Assembly (NCBI GenBank): GCA_017537965.1
Contig: JAFYJV010000020.1
Location: 55,772 to 119,771 of the forward strand
Length of the DNA stretch: 64,000 nt
Direction of reading: 5' to 3'
Origin: Bacteroidales bacterium
Lineage (GTDB): Bacteria > Bacteroidota > Bacteroidia > Bacteroidales > F082
The translations under genes and the position numbers were made by a program. Of this stretch, positions 1-60,761 are shown in pieces. Position 1 is the stretch's first letter; each line of letters starts with the position of its first letter. A model generated the notes under the pieces. The model was not told the DNA's origin. It made no database searches and saw only the letters and a list, made by a program, of their open reading frames with translations.

Positions 1-1487
1 GTGTTTCCTCCGATACTATCTTTAAGTTGTGTGAATTGATTATCCACAACTCTCAATTTGTCAATTTGTTGCTCCTTTTGCTGCTTTACCCTTTCCTGAT
101 ATTGCCTATAGGCATGTTGACGGATGAACAATAGAAAAGAGTGTAATAGCACAATGAAATCTCTTGTGGCGTTCCCTTCCTCAATCAATCCCTCGCGGTT
201 TGTTTTGTCTTTCAGTCTCGGATTCCCTTGTTTGGAAATATCAACAAACCCAACCACTTGGTCATTGCTGAGATAGTCGCCGGCACGTCCAACGCCTCTC
301 TTTTTGTCAATTTCAAGCCAATCGTTGTCAGGGTCTCCGTATGGTGCAACCCGAATATGGTCTCTATACAAATATATCCTGTGTTCTTTTATTGTTTCTT
401 TGTCTTTTTTATCTAAATAGTATGCGCCGCTTTCTCTATCAGCCGCAAAATCAAAAACGAAAAAATTAAACTTGAAATCTCCACATGTTGTGCTCCTAAT
501 TTCTGTTTCACCAAATAGATTCTTCTCTGCAAAACGTTCTTTGAAAACGGTTAACCCTGAAATTTGACTGTCTTTAAGCGATAGAGCATAAGGGACGTTG
601 TTTATTTTGTAAGTAAAACGCCCTTCTTTTTCTGAATATAAGCCATTCGTTATTTTAAGAACCGCAGAATTTTCTAATAAAGATGACAATTCTTTTATGG
701 TCTCATCAGAATACAACAATCTGTTGTCGTTGCATTCAAAACCAATTTCGAAAAGATCTTCTTTTTTCTTTTCGGAGAATATTTTCTCGAAGATAGATTC
801 AAGCTTTTGAGATTCGGCATTTACTTTTTTAATCTTGTCAAAAGACCATTCTCCTTTCAGGTTGGAAATCTCAATAATAGTTCCATGATCGTTACCTTGC
901 TCAAACACAGTATTATTGACAACCACTTTTCTATCTACTAACAGAAACGGTGTTTGCTCTGAAACAGGAATGTTGATATCGTCAATGAACAACTGTTTGT
1001 CTTTGCCATCTTCAGTTAGAAAATCATCATCATACTGAGACAGTTTATAATCAATGACATATTCAACGTTTTCATCTTCGGGTCTTGTCGTAATCTTTAT
1101 GTCTCTACCCAATTTAAGAATGGCAAATCGGCCTATGCCCTTTTCACCCTGAATGATACGGTGCTTCTTTGGAGTAGTCTTTACTTCTTCGTTTTCTCTT
1201 GTTTTTTTATTTGGCGTGGCGGGATTCATCCAACTATCTTCAATGACTTGCAAAGTCATACCACAGCCATTGTCTTCAACTATAATCTTTGAATCTTTGG
1301 TTTTGAGGATTTCTTTTTTCTTCTCGTCATAGCCAAAGTTGACAAAATTAACCTTGACCCAATCTGCATCGGCATCGTATGAATTTTTGATAAGTTCTGC
1401 CAATGCGATTTGCTCATTTTTTATGAGCTGTTCTCCAAGCATAGTAAGCAAACGTGCGTATGGCCTTATTTTCAACGTCTTATCCAT
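1..1487 (-). CDS. GHKL (Hsp90/MutL/MORC-type) ATPase, C-terminus beyond window
   Basis: The minus strand is open from an ATG at 1487 to the window edge (about 495 codons), so the C-terminus is not visible. The N-terminus carries the GHKL ATP-binding motifs in order: N-box ALAELIKNSYDADAD (about residues 26-40), G1 box VEDNGCGM (about 66-73) and G2 box GEKGIGRFA (about 115-123). This is the Bergerat fold of Hsp90, MutL, gyrase B and histidine kinases. No His phosphoacceptor is seen, so it is not a kinase of the usual type. The rest is charged and ends in a Gln/Lys-rich coiled-coil-like stretch. It starts 6 nt after the stop of the DNA methyltransferase at 1494, so the two are very likely co-transcribed. 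GHKL ATPases next to methyltransferases are known from restriction-modification loci (MutL/MORC-like). The ATPase fold is clear from the motifs; a restriction or defence role is inference. Confidence 0.88.
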   Translation of the reverse strand, partial: MDKTLKIRPYARLLTMLGEQLIKNEQIALAELIKNSYDADADWVKVNFVNFGYDEKKKEILKTKDSKIIVEDNGCGMTLQVIEDSWMNPATPNKKTRENEEVKTTPKKHRIIQGEKGIGRFAILKLGRDIKITTRPEDENVEYVIDYKLSQYDDDFLTEDGKDKQLFIDDINIPVSEQTPFLLVDRKVVVNNTVFEQGNDHGTIIEISNLKGEWSFDKIKKVNAESQKLESIFEKIFSEKKKEDLFEIGFECNDNRLLYSDETIKELSSLLENSAVLKITNGLYSEKEGRFTYKINNVPYALSLKDSQISGLTVFKERFAEKNLFGETEIRSTTCGDFKFNFFVFDFAADRESGAYYLDKKDKETIKEHRIYLYRDHIRVAPYGDPDNDWLEIDKKRGVGRAGDYLSNDQVVGFVDISKQGNPRLKDKTNREGLIEEGNATRDFIVLLHSFLLFIRQHAYRQYQERVKQQKEQQIDKLRVVDNQFTQLKDSIGGN

Positions 1488-1493
1488 ATCAAC

Positions 1494-2756
1494 TTACTTT
1501 TTCATTATTATCACATACTCATTCGGATACACCTTTTTGCAATTCGGATTGTCCTGTTTTGTGAACCTACCTGTATTTTTATCCCTAAGAGTAGGCATTA
1601 ATTTGTGAGGAATGCTTCGTTTGATTACTTTTACCTTACACAGTCCCGCATTGCGCAAAAACTCAAAGAAAACCTCAGCAGACTTTATCTGAACGTCTTT
1701 TATCTTTGTATTGCCAATCACAATGCAGGCATAGCCGTTGGGGGCAAGTACTCTTTTCATCTCTTGGGCCACCTTCTGCATGTCATTAAAATATTGGGCA
1801 ACGTCACGAGCAATATGTTTGCTTTTTCCCGATAAATCATTGACAATCTTTTGGGCTTGTTTACTATCTGAAACTATTAGTGAATCATTTCCAGAATAGG
1901 AAGAACCAATGAACTTCTTGCGAAACTCATGAATGTCAGAAATATACTCCATCCAATAGGCTGTTAACTGATGGATGTCAGCATATTCATAAGATGTCAC
2001 ATACGGCGGTGAAGTAATAATTGCATTTATGCTTCCCGTCGGGATTGATGTATGGCGAGCATCCTCCAATAGGATTTCACATGTGGTATCCAAGTATCCT
2101 TTCTGACACAATTCTTCATAGAACTTTCTGTTCCATTCCATCATTCTCTTACAATGACGACAGAATTCCTTAAATGGGTCTTCAAGTTTCTTACCCATGT
2201 CCCTTTGAGGCTTTGTGCCGGATTGCAACCACCATGAACAATTCTTTAAGATATGAGAGATACAAACATAGAAGAAATCCTTTATGTCATCACGAATAAC
2301 CGAATGGTAAATCTTATCATACAGAAAAGCAATCTTTGCTTTTTGTGATGGAGTGAACCAATAGTCTATTCTTTCGTGCTTTTTTATATCCGCATAATCG
2401 GCTTCATTGTATTCATCAAACAACGCTACGAGATTATTGTATGCTGATTGGAGAGCATCAAGCGTCAAAGGTGTCGTCTTTACCTTGGTTATTAGCTGAG
2501 CCACAGGATTGATATCCGTCCCAACAGAAGCAATACCATGAACTTTTGCTTCAACCAAGGTCGTTCCACACCCAGCAAACAAATCTGCTATTCGAATACT
2601 ATCTTGTGCATAGTCTTCAATAATCTTTCTGACGACATCAGGAAGAAACTTCGCCGGATAACGATGGTAGCCATGGGTCCATTGTTCCGTAGAACGAACA
2701 TTTTCAAATGCCCATTCCCGATTTTCTGGTATGTTGTCAAAACTTATATAGCGCAT
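1494..2756 (-). CDS. site-specific DNA amino-methyltransferase (N4-cytosine or N6-adenine)
   Basis: This 420-aa protein has SAM-binding motif I DLFAGCGTT (about residues 58-66) and catalytic motif IV TSPPY (about 250), the signature of exocyclic amino DNA methyltransferases. The sequence HGYHRYPAKFLP near residue 28 is typical of N4-cytosine-like enzymes; SPPY rather than DPPY also leans to N4-cytosine. Motif I precedes motif IV. The region between them (about 90-240) is long and may include target recognition. No restriction endonuclease is recognisable beside it, but the GHKL ATPase gene follows after 6 nt and could be the partner. A Bacteroidota -7 box lies at 2827-2834. Base composition is AT-rich compared with genes beyond 4.4 kb. 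Methyltransferase activity is confident; the modified base and target are unknown. Confidence 0.9.
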   Translation of the reverse strand: MRYISFDNIPENREWAFENVRSTEQWTHGYHRYPAKFLPDVVRKIIEDYAQDSIRIADLFAGCGTTLVEAKVHGIASVGTDINPVAQLITKVKTTPLTLDALQSAYNNLVALFDEYNEADYADIKKHERIDYWFTPSQKAKIAFLYDKIYHSVIRDDIKDFFYVCISHILKNCSWWLQSGTKPQRDMGKKLEDPFKEFCRHCKRMMEWNRKFYEELCQKGYLDTTCEILLEDARHTSIPTGSINAIITSPPYVTSYEYADIHQLTAYWMEYISDIHEFRKKFIGSSYSGNDSLIVSDSKQAQKIVNDLSGKSKHIARDVAQYFNDMQKVAQEMKRVLAPNGYACIVIGNTKIKDVQIKSAEVFFEFLRNAGLCKVKVIKRSIPHKLMPTLRDKNTGRFTKQDNPNCKKVYPNEYVIIMKK

Positions 2757-2826
2757 AATGATAAATTGTCTTTCATATACTCTTTCTTACCATCCAAATA
2801 ATCATGTATAATACCCCAATTATTTG

Positions 2827-2834
2827 CAAAAGTA
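2827..2834 (-). promoter_or_regulatory. Bacteroidota -7 box for the methyltransferase gene
   Basis: On the minus strand this reads TACTTTTG, a match to the Bacteroidota -7 consensus TAnnTTTG, about 70 nt upstream of the methyltransferase ATG. No clear -33 TTTG is visible in the AT-rich sequence behind it. It suggests that the methyltransferase-ATPase pair has its own promoter separate from the gene at 2941-3744. Confidence 0.5.
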
Positions 2835-2940
2835 AATATTTCTTTGAAATATTTACTTATTTACTGAATTATTTTTTTAATATTAATTATACTATTTTAT
2901 TAAAAATGTTATTTAAAAATATAGTTTGTTAAAAAATATA

Positions 2941-3744
2941 CTAACAGCTTACAATTCCATTTAACTGCAAATGCAAAACCGATAAAATCTCACTTAAAAT
3001 AGAGCTGAGTATATCGTGATTGTCTTGATATTGTCTATCAGACCTATAAACAGTTCCTATCTTTTTTGTCAACGATTCCATCTTCTCGGCAATCTGAATA
3101 ATGAGCTTGCCCAAATCATCGGCTTCGGCCATTTCTGAAATCTTGATTTCAACTTTGTCAACAAACGTAGCGGGACGGAGGCTCTTGGATTCGTCTAAGA
3201 TGTAACTCTCTACTTTCTTACCTGAGGCTTCTTCCAGAATGTCAATAATAGATATTTGCGAATTGGCCTTGAGTGCGCTGATCAGCGAATATAGATCGGC
3301 TGGTTTGGTGTCTTGGACAATATCCACAAAATCACTGTAGAGGTCGCTGAAAACAGTGTGGTATTTCAGTTGTTCGCGAGTGATGCCATGTGTTTTCACG
3401 GTGCCATCAGGATTGTAGTCTTTCTCATCATCACTACCGTACTCATTAATATAATCAAGGCGTTTAGAGAGCGCATAATACTCCCAACTACCCGAATACT
3501 CATCAAAGTACTCATTGATGATGTTCGCCCATTCTTCCAATCGTCCAAACACACCATGAAGCCATTTCTCCCAAAGAACGGTCTCATAAAAACTCTGCAT
3601 CTTGAATACCGCCAACTCGCCTGTCGCATCACTGAATGTTCGAGGAATACTCATTGATCGCAAAAGTGAGAGTTTCATGATAATACGATTGAATACTTTC
3701 GCAAGGGGCAAATCGCTCTCTATGGGTTTCAGATAATCTTTCAT
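2941..3744 (-). CDS. hypothetical protein (267 aa) next to methyltransferase/ATPase module
   Basis: An acidic, helix-rich 267-aa protein with no signal peptide or membrane segment; I do not recognise a family. Visible features are a charged N-terminal half with many aromatic residues (WLHGVFGRLEEW) and a C-terminal half predicted as long helices (EIKISEMAEADDLGKLIIQI). ATG at 3744 is chosen because the in-frame stop TAG lies shortly upstream and no other start intervenes. It lies 184 bp upstream of the methyltransferase, in the same direction and with the same AT-rich composition, so it may belong to the same acquired module. The gap holds a separate -7 box, so co-transcription is not certain. 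Function unknown. Confidence 0.7.
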   Translation of the reverse strand: MKDYLKPIESDLPLAKVFNRIIMKLSLLRSMSIPRTFSDATGELAVFKMQSFYETVLWEKWLHGVFGRLEEWANIINEYFDEYSGSWEYYALSKRLDYINEYGSDDEKDYNPDGTVKTHGITREQLKYHTVFSDLYSDFVDIVQDTKPADLYSLISALKANSQISIIDILEEASGKKVESYILDESKSLRPATFVDKVEIKISEMAEADDLGKLIIQIAEKMESLTKKIGTVYRSDRQYQDNHDILSSILSEILSVLHLQLNGIVSC

Positions 3745-16469: not shown

Positions 16470-17393
16470 TCACGAAGACTCCGCTCCCGAAGACGAACTT
16501 TCCCCTATCAACTCCTGGATCTTCTCCTCGCTCAAGCCCATCGATTGCATTTTATCTGCGATCTCCTTGATTGCCTGTGCTTTGCCTAGTTCCATTCCTT
16601 TTTCCATTCCTTTTTCCATTCCCTTTTCCATCCCTTCTTGCATCCCCTTCTTCATCCCTTTTTCATACGAGTAATTAATGGTACTTAGATTGTCCCAGTA
16701 GTGCTTCCGGCTCATCATGTAGGCAAAACGCTGCTCTCCGTCGAACATCCCTATCCTCGCCTCCTCGAAGAACTTCGTGAACACCTGTTCCTGCAGCTCT
16801 TTGGGTTGTTTTAACAGGTAACAGATATTCTTTATCACGAAGAGCCACTTGTCACGCATCGTCACCAACTCATCCTCTTTCTTTGTGAATTTCGGCATCT
16901 CCACGTAGTAGAATGTCAGCTTGTCATAGAATTCATGGTGGTCTTTCGTGTCTTTCAGCATGACCTTATGGATATAGCTGTCATCGCCGTACTCATTGTT
17001 GGGGAATACAAAATCGAGGATGCCGATCACACACACATCCTTGAGCTCGTGATCCCAAGGGCCTCTTGGTCCCTGATCCACAATCGTAGCCGAGGCGTAA
17101 TAAACGGTCCTGTCCTTGAAATAAGGCTGGTCGGAACGTTGCATCTCCACCACAAAGTACGTGTCGTCCTCGGTCTTGCAAAACACATCGAATACCGAGC
17201 TGCGGTCGCCATAGTACGGTCCCAGTTGTTCCGTATTGAGGTATGTCAGATCCACGATGGTCTTTCTGTCACCGTCAAACAACGCATTGAGAAAACTTAT
17301 CAGGATGTCCTTGTTCGGCTCCCTGCCGAACAGCTTCTTGAACCCAAAATCCGTGTAGGGGTTCATAAAGACTTCATTTTTGTAGATTTCCAT
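16470..17393 (-). CDS. Rpn-family PD-(D/E)XK nuclease with repeat tail
   Basis: A 307-aa protein of the Rpn/PDDEXK_2 family (recombination-promoting nuclease, often annotated transposase). N-terminal MNPYTDFGFKKLFGREPNKDILISFLNALF (positions 10-39) and the core SSVFDVFCKTEDDTYFVVEMQ give the Asp and the ExQ/K catalytic elements. The C-terminus has a run of Met-Glu-Lys-Gly units (GMEKGMEKGMEKGME) encoded by a 12-bp repeat at 16590-16662, followed by a helical tail. In Rpn genes of enterobacteria the C-terminal part is also translated alone from an internal start and neutralises the nuclease; the many in-frame ATG codons here would allow this. A -7 box lies at 17423-17430. Confidence 0.88.
   Translation of the reverse strand: MEIYKNEVFMNPYTDFGFKKLFGREPNKDILISFLNALFDGDRKTIVDLTYLNTEQLGPYYGDRSSVFDVFCKTEDDTYFVVEMQRSDQPYFKDRTVYYASATIVDQGPRGPWDHELKDVCVIGILDFVFPNNEYGDDSYIHKVMLKDTKDHHEFYDKLTFYYVEMPKFTKKEDELVTMRDKWLFVIKNICYLLKQPKELQEQVFTKFFEEARIGMFDGEQRFAYMMSRKHYWDNLSTINYSYEKGMKKGMQEGMEKGMEKGMEKGMELGKAQAIKEIADKMQSMGLSEEKIQELIGESSSSGAESS
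16590..16662 (-). repeat. 12-bp tandem repeat coding for the GMEK tail of Rpn
   Basis: On the minus strand units of the form GGAATGGAAAAA repeat about six times with variation toward the 5' end (GGGATGAAGAAG, GGGATGCAAGAA). The most uniform copies are adjacent, as expected for recent slippage. Each unit carries an in-frame ATG behind a purine-rich stretch. Confidence 0.75.
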
Positions 17394-55231: not shown

Positions 55232-55239
55232 TATTTTTG
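55232..55239 (+). promoter_or_regulatory. Bacteroidota promoter for the EF-G gene
   Basis: TATTTTTG with TTTG at 55207-55210, spaced 21 nt: the best full match to the Bacteroidota -33/-7 promoter in the window. It lies 40 nt before ATG 55279 and rules out the upstream in-frame start at 55237. Confidence 0.75.
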
Positions 55240-55278
55240 CAGCCCGAAAATACAGCAAAAACTATTCCATCACATATC

Positions 55279-57342
55279 ATGAGTCAAAATATTTCAAAAC
55301 TACGTAATATTGGTATTGCAGCTCATATTGACGCTGGCAAAACCACTGTCTCGGAACGCATCCTTTTCTTCACCGGCGTGAACCGCAAGGTGGGTGAGAC
55401 CCACGACGGACAGGCCACCATGGACTTCATGAAACAGGAGCAGGAGCGCGGCATCACCATCGCCTCCGCTGCCATCACCGCCCATTGGAACGACCACCAG
55501 ATCAACCTCATCGACACTCCTGGCCACGTTGACTTCACCGTGGAAGTGGAGCGCTCGCTGCGTGTCATCGATGGCATGGTGGCAGTTTTCTGCGCAGTAG
55601 GCGGCGTGGAGCCCCAGTCGGAAACGGTGTGGAACCAAGCCGACAAGTACCGTGTGCCCCGTATCGCCTTTGTCAACAAGATGGACCGTACCGGTGCCGA
55701 CTTCAACGAGGTCGTCGGCCAGATGCAGAAATACCTCGGCGCCAATGCCGTGCCATTGCATCTGCCTATTGGCGCCGAAGCCTCGTTTGAAGGCATGGTG
55801 GATCTCGTGCAGATGAACTCGGTTAGGTTTATCGAGAAGGAACGCATCGTGGGTCCCATCCCGGAACAGATGATGGAGCAAGCCCAGGCTGCCCGTCGCA
55901 ACCTTATTGAGAAGGTGGCTGATGTGGATGACAATGTGGCAGAGCTTTACCTCGATGACAAGGAGATCCCCACCGACCTGCTCATGGCAGCCATCCGTCA
56001 AGCCACTATCAAGCTGATGATGGTCCCCGTGCTCTGCGGCGCCGCTTATAAGAACAAAGGCATCCAGCTGCTGCTGGATGCCATCGTGGACTACCTGCCG
56101 TCGCCCAAAGACCTTGGCGCCGTCATCGCCCACGACCCCTATAACGAGGACAAGACCTGCCAGCGCAACCCCTCGGAGAACGAGCCTTTCGCCGCCTTGG
56201 CTTTCAAGCTCATCAACGACCCTTACGTGGGTCAGCAGACCTTCATCCGTATCTTCAGCGGCAAGCTCACCAATGGCATGAGTGTATATAACACCAACAA
56301 GACCAAGAGCGAGCGCGTTGGCCGCATCTTCCGCATCAAGGCCAAGGAACGCGAAGAGATCGCTGAGGCGGGTCCAGGCGAGATCGTGGCTCTCGTGGGT
56401 ATGAAATACACCCGTACAGGCGACACCCTCTGCGATGAGAAAGCCCCGTTGATGCTCGAAAACATCCATATCCCACCAGCGGTCATCGAGATGAAGGTGA
56501 ACCTCGAAGACAAGAAAAACCGCAGCAAGCTCAGCGAGGCGCTGGCCAAGCTCTGCAACGAGGATCCTTCGTTCCGCGCCCACTTCGACGAGGAGACTGA
56601 AGAGACCATCATCGCCGGCATGGGCGAGTTGCACCTGGAGATCATCGTCGATCGTATCAACACCGAATTCAAGGTGCCCGTTACCGTGGGCGCACCTTCT
56701 GTGTCGTTCCGCGAGACCATCACCACGCCTTTCGAGTGCAACTACAAATATGCCAAGCAATCGGGCGGCAAGGGCCAGTACGCTCATACCGTCATCCGCT
56801 TCGAGCCGAATCCCGGCAAGGGCTTCGAGTTCGTCGATGTCAGCAAGGGTGGCGTGGTGCCTAAGGAATACATACCCTCTGTGGAGAAGGGTCTTGCCGC
56901 CGCCATGCTCAAAGGCCCGTTTGCCGGTTATCCCGTGGTGGATGTGAAATGCGTCCTCGTGGACGGCAGCTCGCACCCTGTGGATTCGAGCGACATGGCC
57001 TTCCAGATCTGCGCACAGATGTGCTTCAAACAGGCCTTCATGAAAGCCAACCCCGTGCTGCTGGAGCCCATGATGAAGGTGGAGATCAACACGCCCGACG
57101 ATTACATCGGCAACGTGACAGGCGACGTCAACAAGCGCCGCGGCCGTATCGAGAACATGCGTCGTTTCCGCAAGGGATCGCAGAAGTTGGATGCCTTCAT
57201 CCCGCTGATGGAGATGTTTGGCTATGCCACTGCCCTGCGCAACCTCACCTCAGGACGCGCCAACTACTCGATGGAGTTCTTCCAATACACGCCGACGCCA
57301 AAAGACAAACAAGAGGAAATCGTCAAGGAACGCAATGCCTGA
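55279..57342 (+). CDS. fusA: translation elongation factor G (stand-alone copy)
   Basis: A 687-aa translational GTPase with all EF-G domains: G1 AHIDAGKTT (about 14-22), G3 DTPGHVDF, G4 NKMD, domain II, domain IV with the EF-G loop ([29 protein letters not shown]) and domain V. It catalyses translocation. The gene stands alone and not in the rpsL-rpsG-fusA operon, and the switch I/G1 part reads TTVSERI and ITIASAAI where the main bacterial EF-G usually has TTTTERI and ITITSAAT. It may be the only EF-G or a second copy; the window cannot tell. A near full-consensus promoter precedes it. Confidence 0.93.
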
Positions 57343-57359: not shown

Positions 57360-58523
57360 TTAGGAACGCGCGATTTTCAACATCTTCTTCCACATCTTTT
57401 GCGTCTTGTCCGCCCGAGTCAAGGTGTCATAGTCGCAGAAGGTAATGTCCATGTATCGGGCGATTTTTTTCAGGTCGCCGGTAAGGTCTTTTTTCAAGGA
57501 GAAAATATAAGAATGACATGCGATGCCTAGCAACACCTCTTTCAACGCGCTGACCTTATAGACGATCTCGTTGAACATGCTCTCGGAGGTGATGCCGCTC
57601 TTGCATTCGATCACAAACAGCTGGTTGTTCTTGAGGAAACAGACGTCCAACTCGTTGTTGTGCTGGATCTCTTGACATCCGTCAATATGCACACCGATGG
57701 CGATGTCGTCTGGCTGGATGTTTTTCCTAACCATGTGATATACATACTCTTCGAACCATCCTCCCGTGAGAAATTCGATCTCCGCCTGTTGGAGCGTCCC
57801 TTTCTGAACAGGATCATATTGGATGTACTTCAGGAATTTGCTTAGGTTGGGGATGGGAATCATACGGTCGCTGACGGCGTTTTCCACTTCTTCTATGTCG
57901 ATGTATTTCCAATTGCGGTATTTCTCGCGAAGGACCTCCATGACTTTGAAGTCGCTGGTGGAGAGTTGACGTTTCGAGAACATCTCGAATAGCCGCTGTA
58001 CCTGTGTTTCTTCCCCTACCAAAGGCTTTGGAATGTCCAAGTCGTGACACAGCCCATAGACATTGAAATACTCGTCAAGCTTAATTTTGTATTGAATGGG
58101 ATAGATCTCATCGTCGTTGTCGAAGATGCTGTTGTCGAAAATGGTCTTAACGATGAGGTTCTCGTGTGTCTGGATATAGTAAAACTTGGCTTTGTAGTTG
58201 GATAACACATGCTGCACCGAGAGGGCCATGTAACGGGTGCCTCCGGCCAGGTTCACACAATACTCGGCTTTCTTGTCCAAGGCACTGCTGATGATGCGGC
58301 AGATGCGTTCGTAAGTATAGCTGTCGGAGTCGCGCCGCAAGACGATTCGCTGCACCATCTCCTTGTCGATTTTCAAGCAGTTGACAAGTGGGGTGATGCA
58401 GTCGAAGTTCTCGTTGGCGGCAATGAACACCAGCTTGTCGCCTTCTTCATAGTTTTCCTTGATGAAGAGGAAGGCGGCAAGCGGGTGTTCACGGCTGATG
58501 ATGTTGACCAGGGTCTTCATCAT
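57360..58523 (-). CDS. CARF-domain PD-(D/E)XK nuclease, Card1/Can2-like (DUF1887)
   Basis: A 387-aa protein. Residues 1-150 form a CARF-type Rossmann domain with the ligand motif NLAGGTRYM (91-99), as in sensors of cyclic oligoadenylate made by type III CRISPR complexes. A winged-helix-like stretch follows (about 180-240). The C-terminus is a PD-(D/E)XK nuclease with Glu in GGWFEEYVY (254-262), Asp 293 in NELDVCFL and Glu 306/Lys 308 in LFVIECKSG, so all catalytic residues are present. The ATG overlaps the pgk stop codon (ATGA at 58520-58523). No CRISPR array, cas gene or cyclase is visible in the window. The long in-frame extension to 58637 lies inside pgk and is not used. Confidence 0.88.
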
Positions 58524-59773
58524 TTCTTGATCGCGGCGATGCCGGGAAGTTCCTTGCCCTCGATGGCCTCGAGGAGGGCTCCACCGCCGGTGCTCACATA
58601 ACTCACACGGTCGGCGAGGCCGAACTTGTTGATACAAGCCACGCTGTCGCCGCCACCGATGAGGGTGAAAGCGCCGTTTTTCTCTGTGGCTTCCACGATG
58701 GCTTCGGCCAAGGCCTTGGAGCCTTCTGCAAACTTGTCGAACTCAAACACGCCGCAGGGACCGTTCCAAAGCACCGTCTTCGACTGCTTGATGATGCCAG
58801 CGTAGAACTTGCGGCTCTCGGGACCGCAGTCCATGCCTTCCCAGCCGTCGGGCACGTTCATCGGGTCAACCACCATGGTGTCGGCGTCGTTCGAGAACTT
58901 GTTGCCTGCCACCACGTCGAAGGAGAGGTAGAGGTTGACGCCTTTCTGCTTGGCTTTCTCGATAATGTCCAAGGCGAGGTCGAGCTTGTCTTCCTCACAG
59001 ATGGAGTTGCCGATATGGCCGCCCAAAGCACGCTTGAAGGTGTAGGTCATGCCGCCGCAGAGGATGAGGTTATCGACTTTGGTGAGCAGGTTTTCGATGA
59101 TCTCGATCTTGGTGGAGACCTTCGAGCCGCCCATGATGGCGGTGAAGGGGCGTTGGATGTCGTTCATCACCTTGTTGACGGCGGCCACTTCCTTGCCCAT
59201 GAGGTAGCCGAACATCTTATGATCGCTATCGAAATAGTCGGCGATGAGTGCTGTGGAGGCATGGGCACGGTGGGCAGTACCGAAGGCGTCGTTGATGTAG
59301 TATTCGCCATAGCCAGCCAGGGTTTTGGTGAACTCCTTCTGCGAGGCTTTGATGGCTTTCTTGGCTTCGTCGTAGCCTTCTTCGCCTTTCTCGATGCCAC
59401 GGGGCTTGCCTTCTTCCTCAGCATAGAAACGGAGATTCTCAAGCACGAGCACCTCACCGGGTTTCATGGCATCCACCTGAGGTTTGGCTTTCGTGCAGTC
59501 GTCGGCAAATTGCACAGGACGGCCGAGTAGCTCTTCCAGATGTTTGATGATGGGCTTGATGCTGTACTTAGGATCCGGATTCTTCTTGGGACGGCCAAGA
59601 TGCGACATCAGCACAACCATGCCCTTATCGTTGAGCACTTTGTTGATAGTCGGCAAGGCGGCACGCATACGGGTGTCGTCGGTGATGTTGAAGTTGTCGT
59701 CCAACGGGACGTTGAAATCTACGCGGATTACTACGTGTTTGTTTTCAAAATTGACTTGATCGATGTTTACCAT
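58520..59773 (-). CDS. pgk: phosphoglycerate kinase
   Basis: A 417-aa glycolytic enzyme that transfers the phosphate of 1,3-bisphosphoglycerate to ADP. Family motifs are complete: [20 protein letters not shown] (13-32), LMSHLGRPK (about 55), [10 protein letters not shown] (about 165), [14 protein letters not shown] (about 213) and [13 protein letters not shown] near 373. The C-terminal codons overlap the start of the CARF nuclease gene. The upstream gene for the lipid kinase ends 25 nt before. Confidence 0.97.
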
Positions 59774-59798: not shown

Positions 59799-60761
59799 TC
59801 AAAATTGATGGTTCTCAGGGACAACCATGTTGATGGCTTCCGGAAGCATTTCGAAATCGAAAGGAGAGTTGGTCAAGGTTTCGCCTTCGGTCTCCAGCAA
59901 CAGCTTATGCGAAGGGATGGAAACGATCCTGATCTTCTTTCCGCGGTAGGTAGAGACCTCCTTGAGTTTGTCAACGAAACTGCCGTCGTAAAGGTTGTTG
60001 ATGCTGGCGGCAAACTTCAACATGCCCAACTTCTTGATGACAGTGATGTCGAACAATCCGTCGTTGGGAACCGCTTTAGGCATCATCATCATGCCGCCGC
60101 CATTGTAGCGACCGTTACCTACCGAAAGGCTAAGTATCTCATCGTCAAATACCAACTGGTCGTCAAGCTCCAGTTGGATATGGACGCACTTGAACCGAAA
60201 AAGACAGCTGGCGGTGCTGAGCATATAACGCACCGAACCTCCTTTTCCCTTCGACTTCAATAGGTTGGTCTTGCCACACACCATCTCGTCCAATCCTGTT
60301 CCCGCGGCATTTAAAAAATATCTGACCTGTGGGTCTCCATGGTTGTAATACACCACTTTTCCAATGTCATGGCGAAAGAGACAACCTTCTTTTATGGTTT
60401 TAATATTTTGTTGATAATCAATTGGAAAACCAAAAGTCCTACGCCAATCATTGCCTGTTCCAATGGGGATGATTCCCATCGAGATCTCTGTGGTGGGGTA
60501 ACGCTGCTGGGTGAAAATGCCATTGACCACTTCGTTGTTGGTGCCGTCTCCACCGACCGAAATCACGTGTTTGTAGCCTTTCTCGGTGATAAGATCCCTG
60601 ACCAATTCGATGGCGTGGCGAGGATATTCCGTCATTTTGGCGTCGAACTCAATATTTTCATTTTTCAACAGTTGTTCTATAGCCGGCCAATCCTTTCCGC
60701 ATTTGCCTATGGATGCCTTGGGATTGACAATGACTAGCCACTTATTTGTTGTTTCGTCCAT
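59799..60761 (-). CDS. diacylglycerol/lipid kinase family protein (YegS/DgkB type)
   Basis: A 320-aa cytosolic lipid-kinase-like protein with NADK/DAGK fold motifs: VIVNPKASIGKCGKDW (about 10-25), HVISVGGDGTNNEVVNGIF (about 66-84) and MGIIPIGTGNDWRRTFG (about 97-113), and the C-terminal NGRYNGGGMMMMPKAVPNDG. It should phosphorylate a lipid such as diacylglycerol. ATG 60761 is chosen because the -7 box at 60782-60789 lies inside the longer frame. It is the first gene of a unit with pgk and the CARF nuclease. Confidence 0.92.
   Translation of the reverse strand: MDETTNKWLVIVNPKASIGKCGKDWPAIEQLLKNENIEFDAKMTEYPRHAIELVRDLITEKGYKHVISVGGDGTNNEVVNGIFTQQRYPTTEISMGIIPIGTGNDWRRTFGFPIDYQQNIKTIKEGCLFRHDIGKVVYYNHGDPQVRYFLNAAGTGLDEMVCGKTNLLKSKGKGGSVRYMLSTASCLFRFKCVHIQLELDDQLVFDDEILSLSVGNGRYNGGGMMMMPKAVPNDGLFDITVIKKLGMLKFAASINNLYDGSFVDKLKEVSTYRGKKIRIVSIPSHKLLLETEGETLTNSPFDFEMLPEAINMVVPENHQF

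Follow-up and report, generated by a model that had tools for sequence, protein, structure and literature searches.

CARF domains occur in RtcR, a regulator of RNA repair, and in nucleases that are read as receivers of the cyclic oligoadenylates from Cas10. Closest to the protein described here are Card1 and Can2 of type III CRISPR systems and VC1899, an orphan DUF1887 protein of Vibrio cholerae (PDB 1xmx). VC1899 shows no type III association, is not activated by cyclic tetra-adenylate (cA4) and is thought to be possibly "cast adrift" and degenerate (PMC7969007). CARF genes of the Daci_4198 type, from the VC1899 family, stand in type VII secretion/Ter clusters and are not CRISPR-linked, and the RtcR and RV2818 CARF families have been suggested to bind ligands other than the usual one (PMC4012209). 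Here we analyse a gene for a Card1/Can2-type nuclease in a 64,000-nucleotide (nt) stretch of a Bacteroidales genome (GenBank assembly GCA_017537965.1, contig JAFYJV010000020.1, positions 55,772 to 119,771; the whole stretch is called the window below), where it follows pgk, the gene for phosphoglycerate kinase. Comparison with related sequences makes it rather likely that a former type III CRISPR effector has been domesticated into the core genome, with its nuclease kept and its ligand pocket remodelled, and the orphan nuclease, as we call this form found apart from type III loci, probably answers a signal other than the type III CRISPR alarm.

Domain structure of the nuclease

The gene and its parts lie in the window as follows (lengths in amino acids, aa):

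57360..58523, minus strand: orphan Card1/Can2-type CARF-PD-(D/E)XK nuclease gene, an open frame of 387 aa (386 aa from the second ATG)
58068..58511, minus strand: CARF sensor domain, residues 5-152 (Pfam PF23400)
58227..58253, minus strand: NLAGGTRYM, residues 91-99, with A93, R97 and Y98 invariant in 51 rows and R97 at the position of the cA4-binding Lys99 of Can2
58110..58145, minus strand: 12-residue acidic insertion, residues 127-138, absent from type III-linked relatives
57486..57779, minus strand: Card1-type endonuclease domain, residues 249-346 (Pfam PF09002)
57600..57752, minus strand: span with the putative catalytic residues E258, D293, E306 and K308, invariant across the alignment rows

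The initial annotation, made from the letters of the window, had proposed an intact CARF and PD-(D/E)XK protein of the Card1/Can2 layout, and three kinds of search bear this out. A Pfam scan of the window protein found an N-terminal CARF_Card1 domain (E 2.1e-12) and a C-terminal PD-(D/E)XK endonuclease domain, Card1_endonuc (E 1.3e-19), both above the curated cut-offs; the top PADLOC model was CARF4--CARF_PDDEXK (6.6e-62), which covers residues 2-380 and hence nearly the full length; and the phmmer matches among solved structures included Can2 (7bdv), Card1 (6wxw and 6xl1) and VC1899 (1xmx). A scan against NCBIfam returned no family. In the alignment, the residues predicted to correspond to the catalytic E, D, E and K of Card1/Can2 are invariant in all 51 rows of intact orthologs from the genus and in the five other relatives compared, and D293 aligns with the D-to-N difference that separates 6wxw from 6xl1.

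Ligand pocket

The contacts of Can2 with cA4 include Ser19, Thr42, Lys99 and Tyr118, the four that are shared with Can1 (PMC7969007). This set is not kept as a whole in the 59 orphan sequences. The Lys99 position is Arg and Tyr118 is kept in all 59; the Ser19 position is Asp in 40 (39 of the 51 genus rows), Ser in 12, Thr in six and Ala in one; and the Thr42 position is Ala in 29, Thr in 25, Pro in two, and Asn, Gly and Ser in one each. By comparison, all 11 type III-linked relatives have Lys at the Lys99 position, Ser at that of Ser19, Thr or Ser at that of Thr42 and Tyr at that of Tyr118, and 17 of 18 other relatives have the Lys. Three further features set the orphans apart: an extra residue in the first ligand loop, following the Ser19 position (59/59 orphans versus 1/32 others), the motif NLAGGxRY (59/59 versus 0/32), and an acidic hairpin of the form [TS]I[FY]D.SI.D.DD, which is strict in 55 of the 59, the window protein included, and present in close forms in the other four, while none of the 32 non-orphans has it.

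The string NLAGGTRYM had been named as the CARF motif at the outset. It does stand at residues 91-99, but the orphans read NLAGG-R where the type III-linked relatives read the usual N[LI]T-G/C-G-K. The comparison with a cA4-binding structure that the initial annotation called for thus yields three changes common to all orphans (Lys99 to Arg, the loop insertion and NLAGGxRY) beside a retained Tyr118. These pocket changes argue for a ligand other than cA4, and of the two possibilities first offered, cyclic nucleotides made elsewhere in the cell or another nucleotide, they would favour another ligand.

Distribution and selection

A first search of 100 relatives gave 34 matches at E <= 1e-5. In the genus as a whole, 51 of 99 genomes carry an ortholog (52 matches minus that of G001, which is remote, at 30% identity). 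The gene is broken in G050, which was excluded from the alignments, the analysis of non-synonymous to synonymous substitution ratios (dN/dS) and the promoter control. The 50 intact genomes give 51 alignment rows, G134 being represented twice: it has two full-length copies on two contigs (L136 and L137), each within ~55 nt of a contig end, which reflect either a duplication or an assembly of two strains. Both copies were retained among the 51 rows and excluded from dN/dS.

On a DNA tree of pgk from 67 genomes, the presence and absence of the nuclease are explained by one change, with a Shimodaira-Hasegawa-like approximate likelihood ratio (SH-aLRT) support of 99 (49 bearers, 17 non-bearers and one undetermined; G136 is on the tree and was not scored). 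Under the midpoint root the change reads as a gain. The 32 genomes off the tree are the bearers G014 (pgk broken up) and G134, then G003, G007 and G019 (pgk cut by a contig end), G035 (a short tail), 17 non-bearers with a full pgk at 76-82% identity, and nine without a pgk match. The median dN/dS of the nuclease gene is 0.084 over 179 pairs from 48 genomes (0.090 for the sensor and 0.081 for the nuclease domain), against same-pair medians of 0.105 for pgk and 0.153 for the neighbouring lipid kinase gene (173 usable pairs). Both domains are under strong purifying selection, and the nuclease marks a clade of about 50 species in one Bacteroidales genus; it looks like a clade core gene rather than a patchy defence gene.

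These data bear on the idea of a degenerate effector, adrift from CRISPR and without present function, as proposed for VC1899. The orphans have likewise lost the CRISPR linkage, they share with VC1899 the Arg at the Lys99 position and, in most genus rows, the Asp at the Ser19 position, and one ortholog is broken (G050). However, the low dN/dS, the single presence change on the pgk tree and the invariance of the putative catalytic residues make degeneration very unlikely.

Cas10 was searched for with the palm2 model in 80 and then in the remaining 19 genomes of the genus, and three matched (G025, G119 and G120): one of the 51 bearers (G119) versus two of the 48 non-bearers. G025 and G119 matched a second time when rerun with the 19. 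G119, the sole genus genome with both an ortholog and Cas10, is 80% complete and 6% contaminated, in 410 contigs. No match was obtained in the 20 bearers of high quality (completeness of 90% or more, contamination of 5% or less), nor in the source genome of the window (2.32 Mb, 93.8% complete). The same model came out unexpectedly above its cut-off in an Escherichia coli control genome. Homologs of cas10, csm and csx20 were absent at E 1e-4 from the 59 orphan-bearing stretches (~4-18 kb each) and from the window, while four type III control stretches matched, and the window has no direct repeats of at least 24 nt lying within 200 nt of each other. The nuclease is therefore neither encoded with Cas10 nor, as far as the palm2 model detects it, housed in a genome that holds one, and the early statement that there is no CRISPR nearby stands, with no CRISPR-like repeats in the window and no Cas10 match in the genome. 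It had also been argued that a Cas10 locus elsewhere in the genome, together with an unconserved pgk linkage, would make this an ordinary displaced effector. We rejected that candidate: there is no Cas10 match in the source genome or in 50 of the 51 genus bearers, so that the nuclease stands apart from resident type III systems, and it keeps its place downstream of pgk within the genus.

A profile search picked up a Card1-like gene in the type III locus of G120 that had escaped the single-sequence search (cut-off 1e-5). The count of remote Card1s may therefore be too low, but that of the orthologs, which are at least 53% identical, should hold. The SMODS synthase of cyclic-oligonucleotide-based antiphage signalling systems (CBASS) is present in only eight of the 99 genus genomes, six of them bearers, and was rejected on that ground as a general partner. 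Of the two kinds of resident signal maker looked for, Cas10 and SMODS, the source genome has neither (mCpol, other cyclic-nucleotide synthases and a second Cas10 model were not searched for). Finally, plasmids and phages gave no tblastn match to the nuclease, and 11 pattern matches in viral_contigs included none that could be confirmed; at the thresholds used, the nuclease was not seen as plasmid or phage cargo.

Relation to type III effectors

In a tree of 56 Card1-like proteins, for which 20 of the 51 genus rows were taken and two remote rows excluded, the orphans (28 of the 59 rows) form one clade with support of 100/100. This clade groups with the type III Card1s of G119 and G510 (98/80), and the type III Card1 of G280 falls outside. 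In a tree of the nuclease domain only (43 rows, 15 of them from the genus, after the exclusion of three remote rows and of seven that lack the search motif), a branch with support of 98/96 sets the 23 orphan rows apart from the rest, but long branches converge at this point, and G119 and G510 do not pair with the orphans in a supported set. Both trees are midpoint-rooted only. By its NLAGGxRY motif, its loop insertion and its place in the monophyletic group, the window protein belongs to the NLAGGxR orphan subfamily, for which descent from a type III effector is the simplest reading.

Two genomes, G119 and G510, have both forms: in addition to the orphan, each has on a separate contig a type III locus that includes its own Card1 and a Csx20-like gene (118 and 122 aa, respectively):

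L102:13410-14510: type III Card1 of G119, beside csm-like genes, 38-40% identical to the window protein
L236:8001-9125: type III Card1 of G510, beside csm genes, with the end of Cas10 on the stretch

A CRISPR array of 14 repeats is present in G119. The Csm3 proteins of these two loci are 82% identical although the genomes belong to different families, which suggests horizontal exchange of the type III system.

Could the orphan be an ordinary cA4 effector in waiting, one that would answer cyclic oligoadenylates from an incoming type III, CBASS or phage-triggered synthase? Its putative nuclease residues are intact, its Tyr is kept, Cas10 loci exist in the group (G119, G120 and G025, and the csm genes and Cas10 end of G510, a member of family f2), and SMODS synthases are found in six of 51 bearers. 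Yet just one of those bearers has a Cas10 match, G119 and G510 keep a separate Card1 and Csx20-like gene within the type III locus itself, the fixed pocket changes occur in none of the 11 type III-linked relatives, and the orphan stretches are free of Csx20 homologs at the threshold given above. On this balance we regard an effector in waiting as unlikely.

Linkage to pgk

The genes around the nuclease in the window are:

58520..59773, minus strand: pgk, phosphoglycerate kinase (PF00162, 493 bits), whose TGA overlaps the nuclease start
59799..60761, minus strand: DAGK/YegS-type lipid kinase (Pfam scan), the upstream member of the same-strand run
55237..57342, plus strand: fusA-like elongation factor G, convergent, its stop codon 17 nt from that of the nuclease gene (named by eye from the sequence)

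An operon with the lipid kinase had been proposed; the kinase gene is indeed upstream on the same strand, and a single operon would follow from the spacing. An ATGA overlap with pgk had been proposed as well. Two tandem ATGs lie at this point, of which the first gives the 4-nt ATGA overlap (387 aa) and the second a protein of 386 aa. The conserved N-terminus agrees with the second, which is the start in 10 of the 12 other directly adjacent orthologs (ten have a 1-nt TGATG or TAATG overlap, G100 has ATGA, and in G010 the start lies 4 nt past the stop codon); the ATGA overlap thus holds for the first ATG, but the conserved start is the second.

Across the genus, pgk and the nuclease share a stretch in 46 of 52 loci, the other six having no pgk on the stretch, and the nuclease is downstream of pgk in all 46. 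Only 13 of these loci are directly adjacent (-4 to +4 nt); the remaining 33 are separated by 78-4,462 nt. The pairing that had been singled out for a conservation check is accordingly conserved in its order but not in its overlap or adjacency. A gene for a secreted protein, which carries Por_Secre_tail and, as read by eye, a beta-helix, lies between or beside pgk and the nuclease in 29 of the 33 separated loci. We did not accept it as a partner of the nuclease because it follows pgk also in genomes without the nuclease: a member of the same family comes after pgk in 10 of the 17 non-bearer loci examined. In several genomes the gap also contains HicB-like, PIN and AAA_14 genes (for example L034:6159-6494, L052:7581-7991 and L048:5613-6806), so this spot takes up toxin-antitoxin-like genes.

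The sequence TAnnTTTG is a promoter element of Bacteroidetes. Of the 52 loci, 20 have such a box no further than 70 nt from the start codon, 19 of them at -24 to -28 and one at -47. None of the 13 adjacent loci has it; among the 38 intact non-adjacent loci the count of 20 compares with a mean of 1.4, and at most 6, in 500 letter shuffles, the related species not being independent. In G127 and G135, reading by eye shows a hairpin-like stretch that separates pgk from this box.

A functional link to glycolysis, in which the nuclease would read 3-phosphoglycerate or an adenylate-energy signal through its coupling to pgk, was part of the initial annotation. The constant position downstream of pgk and the 13 adjacent loci would suit it. 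Against it stand the 33 separated loci, the promoter-like boxes, the hairpin-like stretches of G127 and G135, the absence of pgk from the eight orphan stretches outside the genus, and the non-bearer loci in which the secreted-protein gene follows pgk with no nuclease on the stretch. We consequently rejected glycolytic coupling as a conserved trait, on its variable spacing, the genes' own promoter-like boxes and the pgk-free loci of other families, and a glycolysis sensor seems extremely unlikely.

Orphans outside the genus

In a sample of 393 genomes from the order, the ortholog profile matched three of the genus, two others strongly and 17 at no more than 82 bits, 22 in all. The two strong matches are full-length members in other families, G435 (475 bits) and G217 (453 bits). 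Cas10 was found in nine of the 19 non-genus genomes that matched, and in neither G435 nor G217. In the family of G217, 13 of 104 genomes matched, seven of them strongly and all of these in one genus, and in a sample of the phylum five of 395 matched, the only strong match being the source genome itself. The eight orphans of families f2 and f80 have differing neighbour genes, some of them galM-like or tyrS-like by names read by eye, and no pgk on their stretches.

In two of these genomes, G489 and G503, the orphan comes after a gene for a RecQ helicase, with ~10 nt between the end of that gene and the likely ATG. This would suit a nuclease of DNA repair or replication stress, in which CARF would serve as a fixed dimerisation part or as a sensor of a DNA-damage metabolite and growth arrest would not be the purpose. 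A core, slowly evolving gene is in keeping with such a role, and the nuclease domain of Can2 superposes on the mismatch nuclease EndoMS (PMC7969007). But RecQ is present on only two of the 60 records searched, namely the window and the 59 orphan stretches, and these two come from close relatives; moreover, the equal constraint on sensor and nuclease suggests a role for ligand gating. A repair nuclease thus appears improbable.

Further Card1-like genes came to light in the genomes searched. G225 (L197:7226-8401) and G322 (L196:7297-8445) have Card1-like genes that are closely related to each other, with the CARF motif NISDGTK in G225; neither genome has a Cas10 match, and the genes are candidates for another orphan line. 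The remote gene of G001 (motif NIKCGTKVM, L062:7770-8978) follows a gene named by eye as speA-like at a distance of 30 nt, in a genome with no Cas10 match, and is perhaps an independent orphan.

Other features of the window

The genes at positions 3-3744 of the window resemble a restriction-modification cluster or a related defence cluster: they encode a HATPase_c_3 protein of 495 aa, which the window start truncates, an N6_N4 DNA methyltransferase (PADLOC MTase_II) and a protein of 267 aa to which Pfam assigns no family. Far from the nuclease, at 16470-17393, a protein of the PDDEXK_2 transposase family (PF12784, 6.7e-68) is the trace of a mobile element.

Discussion

Domestication of a type III effector would account for the kept nuclease, the altered pocket and the distribution of the orphans, and by analogy with Card1/Can2 the following mechanism can be proposed. 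The orphan would form a dimer with a ligand pocket between its two CARF domains; binding of the ligand would switch on the two nuclease domains, which would nick DNA and/or cut RNA, and growth would be slowed or stopped. The ligand may be an anionic nucleotide other than the cA4 of type III systems, made by a host enzyme, since the Arg and Tyr would be kept for phosphate contact and the base-side and loop contacts are changed. In the overlap subclade, expression from the pgk transcript would do no more than maintain a ready supply of sensor protein. With appreciable doubt, we also entertain the wider idea that the escaped effector has become a fixed sensor of a new host nucleotide signal in Bacteroidales, part of core physiology and with its own synthase elsewhere in the genome.

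Several observations weigh against domestication with a changed ligand. In the pocket, Tyr118 is kept throughout, equivalents of Ser19 and Thr42 remain in some orphans and the exchange of Lys for Arg is conservative; the orphans may bind cA4 or other cyclic oligoadenylates. Many of the genomes are incomplete metagenome-assembled genomes, and Cas10 was searched for in two of the seven f2 genomes with orphans. No gene besides the nuclease was seen to be common to the orphan neighbourhoods of different families. With regard to the pgk tree, gain rather than loss is not proven by a midpoint root, and 32 of 99 genomes are missing from it. The dN distances of the nuclease track those of pgk only modestly (Spearman 0.29, compared with 0.47 for the lipid kinase), although none of 500 shuffles matched these values. 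The overlap subclade does not emerge from the pgk tree. Either recombination at the locus or noise in the trees would explain this. Five genomes whose pgk identity is bearer-like have no ortholog: in G136, G003, G007 and G019 the contigs stop in or soon after pgk, and in G035 the secreted-protein gene, without a nuclease, comes after a 67-residue tail of pgk (91% identity). Losses in these five are possible.

A nuclease of the CRISPR-alarm type is fixed in a large group of gut bacteria, nearly all of which are without a Cas10 match. Orphan CARF nucleases are already in print; the new part is a conserved orphan clade with a derived, remodelled pocket, of which the literature searched, with few subscription papers included, gave no account. 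As G119 and G510 carry both the CRISPR form and the orphan form, they offer natural controls, and the question of whether CARF nucleases have ligands outside CRISPR becomes directly testable with defined proteins.

Compared with known systems, the orphans share with Card1/Can2 (DUF1887; PDB 6wxw and 7bdv) the domain order, the CARF_Card1 and Card1_endonuc families, the predicted positions of the catalytic E, D, E and K, and the length. They differ in standing on stretches without Cas10 or csm genes, in having a Cas10 match in just one of 51 bearers, and in the exchange of Lys99 for Arg and of TGG for AGG, the one-residue loop insertion and the acidic hairpin. The type III Card1s of G119 and G510, their nearest relatives outside the orphan clade in the 56-protein tree, have sensors reading NLTGGTKFM and SEQTIPN and keep csm-like and Csx20-like neighbours. 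Daci_4198-type genes belong to a predicted conflict-system cluster (PMC4012209), whereas the window nuclease stands alone among housekeeping genes; and RtcR and RV2818 (PMC4012209) are mostly without the positive residue after strand 4, where the orphans have Arg.

VC1899 is the one orphan nuclease we found with a cA4 test. It has, like the orphans, Arg at the Lys99 position and, like 40 of the 59, Asp at the Ser19 position, but it is remote (phmmer E 1.1e-8), and its contact set of Asp, Asp, Arg and Val is not that of the orphans, in which the Thr42 position is never Asp and Tyr118 is not replaced by Val. VC1899 has been judged possibly degenerate (PMC7969007), whereas the present clade, conserved and under selection, bears the opposite signature: one presence change, purifying selection on both domains, invariant active-site residues and fixed changes in the sensor.

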